A stretch of 49,850 bases of DNA. Origin: Pseudobdellovibrionaceae bacterium. Its GTDB lineage: Bacteria > Bdellovibrionota > Bdellovibrionia > Bdellovibrionales > UBA1609. Location of the stretch: the NCBI GenBank assembly GCA_030591685.1, contig JAUVAX010000015.1, positions 1 through 49,850 of the forward strand, read 5' to 3'. The position numbers and the translations under genes were made by a program. Positions 38,244 through 40,831 of this stretch are shown in pieces (positions within the stretch are counted from its first letter, which is position 1; the number at the start of each line of letters is the position of its first letter). Below the pieces are notes generated by a model, which worked only from the letters and a program-made list of their open reading frames with translations, searched no databases and had not been told where the DNA came from.

Positions 38244-39059
38244 ATGTCGCAAAGCTTAACGCCCGTAATAAAAAATCAATTACTCTCAAGCGCTTGCCAG
38301 GCGGCAAAGCTTGGTAGACAGGTATTGTTGGATTATTTCGGGCACTTATCTAAGGTGAGTGAAAAGCACTTGGCCGGTCTAGTGAGCGAGGCCGACGTGG
38401 CCAGCGAAAAGGTAATTAAGGACTATTTAGCACAAAGGCATCCCAAAATTGGCTTTTTGGGCGAAGAAGAGGCCTTTGAAAACCCCAACCTTAGCCTATC
38501 ATCACATGAGTCACTTTGGGTGGTTGACCCCTTAGATGGCACGACTAATTATGTGCACAGGTTCCCTATTTTTTGCATAAGTATTGGGCTTATTATTAAC
38601 GGTAAAATCGAAGTGGGCGTTATAGATGTGCCTATGCTCAATAAAACCTATATGGCCACCGCCGGGGGCGGGGCCTTTGCCAACGAGGTCCCTTTAAAGG
38701 CCAGTCAACGAAGCCAAGTTTCTCAAAGCTTATTGGCCACAGGTTTTTTTGCTCAAAATAAGCCCGCCTTAAAACAGCAGTTAAAAATATTTTCTGAATT
38801 TATAGGCCAAGCCAGGGGTGTTCGGCGAGCCGGCGCTGCGGCTTATGATTTATGCATGGTTGCTGAGGGTGTTTTTGATGGTTTTTGGGAGCGTAATTTA
38901 AGCCCATGGGACACCTGTGCCGGCACCTTGCTTGTTCGCGAAGCCGGGGGCATTGTAACTAACTACGAGGGCGGCGAGTACCACCCCGATCAAAACTCTA
39001 TCCTAGCCTCTAATAAGCCTCTTCATGGGCAACTTTTAAAGGTGACTTCATTATATTAA
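38244..39059 (+). CDS. suhB: Inositol monophosphatase family protein
   Basis: The 271-residue enzyme shows the family metal sites: GEEEAF (Glu74 region), DPLDGTTNYVHRFP (Asp95 and Asp98) and WDTCAGTLLVREAGG. Family members hydrolyse inositol monophosphate, and SuhB also acts with the ribosomal RNA antitermination complex. The exact substrate is not fixed by the sequence. No signal peptide is seen. Its end converges on the Aat-like gene with a terminator between them. Confidence 0.88.
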   Translation: MSQSLTPVIKNQLLSSACQAAKLGRQVLLDYFGHLSKVSEKHLAGLVSEADVASEKVIKDYLAQRHPKIGFLGEEEAFENPNLSLSSHESLWVVDPLDGTTNYVHRFPIFCISIGLIINGKIEVGVIDVPMLNKTYMATAGGGAFANEVPLKASQRSQVSQSLLATGFFAQNKPALKQQLKIFSEFIGQARGVRRAGAAAYDLCMVAEGVFDGFWERNLSPWDTCAGTLLVREAGGIVTNYEGGEYHPDQNSILASNKPLHGQLLKVTSLY

Positions 39060-39110: not shown

Positions 39111-39866
39111 TTATTGATAGGTTAAATTTTCTAACTGTGCTTTTTTAATCCGTCGTATAAACTCCCTGCGGCTAATCATCTTACTGTTATGGCTTTGGAT
39201 TAAGGGCGACATCTCCTGAGTATCGATCCACTTTAGGCCCCGTGTTTTTAAATGCTCAATAAGAGCAACAAATGCAATTTTTGAAGTGTTGTCTTTAAAA
39301 TGAAACATGCTTTCCCCAAAGTACACGCCCTTAATAAATGTGCCATAGAGGCCGCCGACAAGTTTTGACCCCTCCCAGACCTCAACACTGTGCGCGTAGC
39401 CGAGTTTATGTAGCTCTATATAGGCATTAATAAAATTTTTAGAAATCCATGTTGGTCCTTGGTTGCCCCTCGAGGCATCTGCCGAGGCGTTAATGACCCC
39501 AATAAAATTTTCATCAAAAGACACCCTGTAGGGTGAGTTTTTAATAATTTTTTGAGTTGTTTTGTTAATGCGAAAATCAGAAAACTCTAAAATTGCACGA
39601 TGTGGGGGGGAGTACCACTGTATGTGGTCGCCATTATCTACCCACGGAAAGATCCCGTTCCTGTACGCCTCAATTAAACTGGGGACAGTTAGGGGAGCGT
39701 CCACAAAAACTTCACCAGTAAGGGGGCTCGTAACTAAGGGTTTTTTAAAAAACACAGGTCGCGGCTTAAATGTTTTATAGCAAACATTCTGCCCCCATAG
39801 GGGCCCGCTCATAGAAGAGCCTAAAAAAAATATTAATATTATAAGTGCCTGATACATTTTGATCAT
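39111..39866 (-). CDS. Leucyl/phenylalanyl-tRNA-protein transferase-like protein with a signal peptide
   Basis: The 251-residue protein has the Aat core: NGIFPW (Trp75), QWYSPPHRAILEF, GPTWISKNFINAYIELHKLG, AHSVEVWEG, VGGLYG, GVYFGESMF (Glu185) and IDTQ (Gln217), the residues needed to transfer Leu or Phe from tRNA to an N-degron protein. Unusually, residues 5-22 form a hydrophobic signal-type helix (ALIILIFFLGSSMS) directly after the start. An AGGGG site lies four bases before the ATG, which supports translation of the signal. The normal GGDL N-terminal motif is absent. Export or membrane anchoring is inferred; a GTG start inside (about residue 38) is the cytoplasmic alternative. Confidence 0.7.
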   Translation of the reverse strand: MIKMYQALIILIFFLGSSMSGPLWGQNVCYKTFKPRPVFFKKPLVTSPLTGEVFVDAPLTVPSLIEAYRNGIFPWVDNGDHIQWYSPPHRAILEFSDFRINKTTQKIIKNSPYRVSFDENFIGVINASADASRGNQGPTWISKNFINAYIELHKLGYAHSVEVWEGSKLVGGLYGTFIKGVYFGESMFHFKDNTSKIAFVALIEHLKTRGLKWIDTQEMSPLIQSHNSKMISRREFIRRIKKAQLENLTYQ

Positions 39867-39997
39867 AAACCCCTGCGGACTTAAAATTAACGAAGCAAGT
39901 GGGGTTTTATCTTACAAAAAGTGAAATTTAAAGTTTAAGTCTTAAAATTTATATAAACTTAACTATTTTTTGAAATATGTACTTATTTTTTGATTAT

Positions 39998-40031
39998 AAA
40001 AAAAAGGGGCTTACTAGTAAGGCCCCTTTTT
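39998..40031. terminator. Bidirectional intrinsic terminator
   Basis: GGGGCTTAC pairs with GTAAGGCCCC (one bulged G) around TA. It is preceded by A8 and followed by T5, so it can work in both directions. It lies after the stop of the lipoprotein gene at 40059 (minus strand). Confidence 0.8.
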
Positions 40032-40058
40032 ACATTAAGTTGTAGCGCGCTCTTGGCT

Positions 40059-40655
40059 TTACATGCAGTACCCAACAAATTCATAAACTTTACGCTGCCA
40101 GTTACGGGCTGATGTAAAGTGGGCTAATTTGTGGCTGTCACTTTTTTGAAAATCAATATTCGTTTGCTCGGTGTAAAATATAATGCGGTATTCAACATCT
40201 CTAACGCCGCTATTTCGCTCATAGTAGCAAATTTTTTCGTGGCCATTCCAAAAGCAAACATACCTCTGGGGGCCTTCGCAGAATTCGGTACCTCTTATTA
40301 AGCGTCCTGTTTCATGCTCTGTTGTGCGAGAGCCTGTGATATCAAAATCTTGCTTAATCTTTTTGCGATCAATAAAAATATTTTTCATATTCTCATCAAA
40401 GGCATCCTTAGGCAGCATAAAGCTAAACTTTTTTGTGAGTTCTTCGTTTTTAACTTCGGCCTTTAGAGTAAGGTGATCGCCACTTTTTTTGACCTTTACC
40501 TTTGCCTCATAAGTACCGGTGGGTATTGTGGTAGAATCCTTTTCATCGCTAAAGGTAATATCCTCATTAACGGTAAACTGACCAATTAATGTATCGCTAC
40601 AGGCTGTGAGCATTAAAGACGCGCACACAAACAGACTTGTTAATATTTTATTCAT
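40059..40655 (-). CDS. Lipoprotein of unknown function
   Basis: From the ATG at 40655, which has a GAGGGGG site six bases upstream, the product has 198 residues. Its lipobox LTAC gives a lipidated Cys at residue 19. The remainder looks like a beta-rich domain (VNEDITFSDEK, TGTYEAKVKVKKSGDHLTLKAEV) followed by a Cys-containing part (EFCEGPQRYVCFWNGHEKICYY) that may hold disulfides. No family is recognised. The longer frame from 40694 lacks a suitable start site. Confidence 0.65.
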   Translation of the reverse strand: MNKILTSLFVCASLMLTACSDTLIGQFTVNEDITFSDEKDSTTIPTGTYEAKVKVKKSGDHLTLKAEVKNEELTKKFSFMLPKDAFDENMKNIFIDRKKIKQDFDITGSRTTEHETGRLIRGTEFCEGPQRYVCFWNGHEKICYYERNSGVRDVEYRIIFYTEQTNIDFQKSDSHKLAHFTSARNWQRKVYEFVGYCM

Positions 40656-40831
40656 AGTATCCCCCTCATTGGACTTTAGTAGAGTATAGGACACATAAAA
40701 TTAAGAGCAACAGAGGTTTATGCGCTTATCACGCCGCTTCCTAAATTTATTAGCTCTTTGTCTGTAAGCCGTCGAATAGTCCTGTCAAAAATGTCACTTA
40801 AAACCCTTTAGGGGGGTCAAAAAATTATCAA

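Follow-up and report, generated by a model that had tools for sequence, protein, structure and literature searches.

The gene at 39111-39866 of the window (the whole 49,850-nucleotide stretch analysed, from a Pseudobdellovibrionaceae bacterium) very probably encodes an exported paralogue of Aat, judging from its sequence. Export is well supported because the product has a leader, its paralogues conserve this leader, and the genome holds a second, leaderless Aat. Aat, the leucyl/phenylalanyl-tRNA-protein transferase, transfers Leu or Phe from tRNA to N-terminal Arg or Lys and feeds ClpS/ClpAP. It marks intracellular proteins for degradation and is treated as a cytoplasmic enzyme. We propose, with a probability of roughly 0.6, that the predicted protein is a Sec-exported Aat paralogue that keeps the catalytic residues, belongs to a clade-restricted family and would act outside the producing cell. 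The family is a real and apparently unreported variant of a known enzyme family. A literature search found no description of an exported Aat, and the one matching mention cites an Aat structure merely as a GNAT reference.

The gene, its surroundings and its 5′ features are as follows.

39111-39866, minus strand: exported Aat-like gene, 251 amino acids plus stop (ATG at 39866, stop at 39111)
38244-39059: inositol-monophosphatase-family gene, convergent with the exported Aat-like gene
39870-39874, minus strand: AGGGG, possible Shine-Dalgarno site, read directly and weak by consensus
39792-39866, minus strand: predicted Sec-type leader, residues 1-25, MIKMYQALIILIFFLGSSMSGPLWG, basic then hydrophobic
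39768-39782, minus strand: C29-x3-F33 (CYKTF), the tag after the leader

The gene is apparently monocistronic, and a promoter scan of it was uninformative. A co-oriented gene upstream (40059-40694, minus strand) encodes a small lipoprotein-like product in which LTAC resembles a lipobox and which matches no Pfam family; a terminator-like inverted repeat, seen by eye, lies near 40000-40035 between the two genes. Across the exported Aat genes, no shared operon partner was found except within one genus (g25), the only one in which synteny is retained. The AGGGG site that the first-pass annotation had assigned to the start codon is present 3 nt from ATG1, and it lies 12 nt from an in-frame ATG at M4 (39857). 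Both starts retain the leader.

The same annotation had described a hydrophobic signal-type segment before the Aat core, and the measurements bear this out. The maximal 11-residue Kyte-Doolittle mean of the leader is 2.83, compared with a maximum of 2.26 (95th percentile 1.81) in 121 leaderless Aats for which every possible start was allowed. When the upstream DNA and leader were shuffled with dinucleotides preserved, an equally good open, in-frame, basic-then-hydrophobic extension arose in 0.06% of 5000 shuffles. The exported homologues have leaders as well, scoring 2.14-3.35 in eight of the nine copies; that of G024 (MLLQWLLPFAAFASSFA) scores only 1.67 but looks typical on visual inspection.

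These data bear directly on whether the leader is spurious and the protein a normal cytoplasmic Aat, whose true start would be GTG38 or later. The Aat fold requires nothing before residue 35, and the AT-richness of the DNA upstream makes hydrophobic codons more likely. Nevertheless, the shuffle control (0.0006), the paralogues that carry both leaders and the C-x3-[LF] motif, and the separate ordinary Aat in the genome make such a start very improbable. The internal GTG at residue 38, proposed earlier as a start that would reduce the protein to an ordinary Aat, is not preceded by a Shine-Dalgarno site, and its use would remove the conserved C-x3-[LF] motif.

An uncleaved anchor at the inner membrane face, which had also been suggested, is hardly credible either. 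Two points favour it: a hydrophobic segment is present, and this member lacks a textbook AxA at its cleavage site. However, membrane anchors are usually longer than this hydrophobic core of about nine residues, K3 precedes the core, so that the positive-inside rule would place the enzyme outside, and several other members have AxA-type sites (AEA/H, SHA/G and VAG/A, cut at the slash). Because of the short core and these sites, the leader is probably a signal peptide that is cleaved. The protein does not match the lipobox [LVI][ASTVI][GAS]C and has QNVC there instead.

Behind the leader, the model contains a complete Aat fold with the following features.

39114-39764, minus strand: complete Aat fold, residues 35-251, from the AlphaFold model aligned to 2dps_A
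39690-39701, minus strand: DAPL in place of canonical GGDL, residues 56-59, from the alignment
39642-39650, minus strand: FPW, residues 73-75, with W75 aligned to E. coli W49
39447-39449, minus strand: W140, aligned to E. coli W111
39303-39317, minus strand: GESMF, residues 184-188, with E185 aligned to E. coli E156
39216-39227, minus strand: IDTQ, residues 214-217, with D215 and Q217 aligned to E. coli D186 and Q188

The FPW, GESMF and IDTQ motifs noted in the first-pass annotation are thus all in place, and the protein matches PF03588 (Leu_Phe_trans, E=1.5e-59) and TIGR00667 aat (169.7 bits; equivalog cut-off 143.55). Since it exceeds this cut-off, automatic annotation would name it Aat. The AlphaFold model has a mean pLDDT of 88.7, and its best PDB matches (Foldseek 8e-23) are all E. 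coli Aat, whose structures include 2cxa, 2dps and 2z3k. The GGDL-containing N-terminus had been reported missing; the model aligns from residue 35, so the region is there and the motif alone has changed to DAPL.

Within the exported set, E156, D186 and Q188 (E. coli numbering), the catalytic residues of E. coli Aat, are kept in 9/9, as are W111, W58 and Y42. W49 is found in 7/9 and replaced by Y in the other two. The set is relaxed at the GG of GGDL, S166 and N191, which are near-invariant in cytoplasmic Aats, and the G56 column of the GGDL motif is lost in 9/9 copies. The donor or acceptor may therefore have changed. The charge and pI of the set follow no trend. Trp residues of Aat stack on A76 of the tRNA (PMC4052509). 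The retention of both the catalytic residues and those that stack on A76 makes it fairly likely that the exported protein is still an aminoacyl transferase.

The genome also encodes ClpS and, on the downstream side of a recQ-like gene, an ordinary Aat that has no leader. Among ten named genomes, its best UvrD matches were to a 'Deltaproteobacteria' MAG (51%) and an Oligoflexia MAG (46%), which makes a place in Bdellovibrionota likely. In our sample of the phylum, PF03588 occurs in 296 of 369 genomes and is nearly always single-copy. Nine exported genes were recognized, namely 39111-39866 and leader-bearing paralogues in eight other genomes (G015, G024, G034, G036, G044, G050, G120 and G132), all confined to one order. 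The exported-copy profile, built from seven leader-bearing copies with their leaders included, which aids separation, gave E values of 1e-82 to 1e-112 for exported proteins and 1e-69 or weaker for the remaining Aats. The threshold of E 1e-67 leans on this leader-including model, so more divergent exported copies may be missed. When contigs were searched with three of the exported sequences, ordinary Aats overwhelmed the results. No exported copy was found in 297 genomes sampled around another named genome, a sample without a positive control.

In a tree of 81 rows, including eleven gammaproteobacterial ones wrongly labelled as canonical copies of the order, an error that leaves the exported group unaffected, the nine exported copies form one side of a branch with moderate support (76/74; 78% of bootstraps), and the ordinary Aat of the genome groups with those of its family (98/93). 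A tree forced to unite the exported protein with this ordinary copy and the closest relatives is worse by 29.9 log units (p-AU 0.0775); a recent duplication of the genome's own cytoplasmic Aat is therefore disfavoured as the source, not rejected. Pairwise identity among exported copies is about 34-46%. They diverge faster than the ordinary copies of the same genomes: between G024 and G034, the exported proteins are 46% identical and the ordinary ones 65%.

The exported profile also aligns with eleven longer Aat-like proteins from this order that bear leaders (hhalign 1e-33).

L068-L075, L113, L114 and L116: long leader-bearing Aat-like proteins, 390-705 amino acids, most with a degenerate active site

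Those of L068-L075, L113 and L116 (390-633 residues) have in common with the 39111-39866 product the leader, the C-x3-[LF] tag and the Aat fold, which lies in the C-terminal half of the one long relative modelled. Unlike the short family, they carry an inserted region and have mostly lost IDxQ. G034 and G050 have several such proteins per genome. At L070 and L116 (G019:C71), genes for three of the long exported proteins are adjacent on one strand, and the genome bearing them gave no ordinary Aat match.

As most long relatives have lost IDxQ, the lineage can evidently do without catalysis. The 39111-39866 product might by the same token be an exported binding protein or pseudoenzyme, its fold reused for binding peptide or RNA without catalysis. 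We consider this quite improbable, as E156, D186 and Q188 are present in 9/9 members of the short family to which it belongs.

The C-x3-[LF] tag directly follows the leader in 20/20 exported Aat-like proteins aligned (9/9 short and 11/11 long), against any Cys in the corresponding segment of just 16/121 leaderless Aats. Leader-bearing proteins unrelated to Aat carry it too.

L113:734-1399, L247:2560-3258, L204:6156-6830 and L205:8088-8768: unrelated leader-bearing C-x3-[LF] proteins
L221:135-1247, L225:8242-9111, L200:3353-4999 and L072:262-1845: the rest of this set

Among them are one GNAT acetyltransferase (Acetyltransf_3, 1.4e-20), one DUF4258 protein and three with HE(L/F)xH-like peptidase motifs recognized by eye. 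The DUF4258 match was to a gene neighbouring an exported Aat. Of the 114 non-lipoprotein leader-bearing genes in 400 kb of G034, about five to seven were tagged, and none convincingly among 102 in 400 kb of G048, a genome without an exported Aat; both are small counts from samples passed through simple filters. The tag offers a handle for finding further members of a secreted set.

For the exported Aat-like family, we propose an architecture of leader, C-x3-[LF] tag and Aat fold. The leader would be cleaved and the protein would leave the cytoplasm, where the genome's leaderless Aat and its ClpS would keep the normal N-end-rule role. The exported enzyme may transfer an aminoacyl group to an amine outside the producing cell. 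One argument against such activity is that Aat depends on aminoacyl-tRNA, a substrate one would expect to meet only in a cytoplasm. With a donor that belongs to the cytoplasm, the enzyme could act in another cell or in a lysate; the likeliest setting would be one in which another cell's charged tRNA is accessible, i.e., a lysed or invaded cell. In Bdellovibrio, the bdelloplast does receive exported enzymes (PMC4876506). That the protein acts on another cell's material is only a tentative suggestion. The earlier idea of reuse outside the cytoplasm thus stands as regards export, which the leader and the paralogues support well; the reuse itself is no more than plausible.

GNAT acetyltransferases likewise depend on a donor from the cytosol. 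Because the donors, charged tRNA and acetyl-CoA, are only cytoplasmic, the order might hold a secreted set of C-x3-[LF] enzymes delivered into the cytoplasm of another cell, whose proteins the exported Aat would then aminoacylate. We regard this extension as distinctly unlikely; if true, the target cell's own N-end-rule proteolysis could be turned against it.

The protein could instead serve the envelope of its own cell, as a periplasmic enzyme whose donor is not a tRNA and which passes an aminoacyl group, or some other acyl group, to an amine of a peptide, lipid or wall component. This is unlikely in our view, although Aat, FemX and the MprF/A-PGS aminoacyl-lipid synthases have a common fold, and the exported set departs from cytoplasmic Aats at GGDL, S166 and N191. 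The A76-stacking Trp residues are kept, as if the aminoacyl-adenosine end were still bound; FemX and MprF work with cytosolic tRNA; and an envelope-gene neighbourhood was not found around the exported genes.

Compared with E. coli Aat, the exported protein has the same fold (2dps_A: 212 residues aligned, VIA Z 28.7, 35% identity), the catalytic E/D/Q and the stacking Trp residues, but differs in its predicted Sec-type leader, its C-x3-[LF] tag, its DAPL for GGDL and the presence of an ordinary Aat alongside. The aminoacyl-tRNA-dependent transferases FemX/FemA and MprF/A-PGS are related by a GNAT-type fold (Z ~11-13), whereas they are only ~6-15% identical, use cytosolic tRNA and other acceptors, and are not leader-bearing exported enzymes. 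An exported family with intact catalytic residues would imply either that transfer of the aminoacyl-tRNA type takes place outside the producing cell or that this fold has acquired a new donor.
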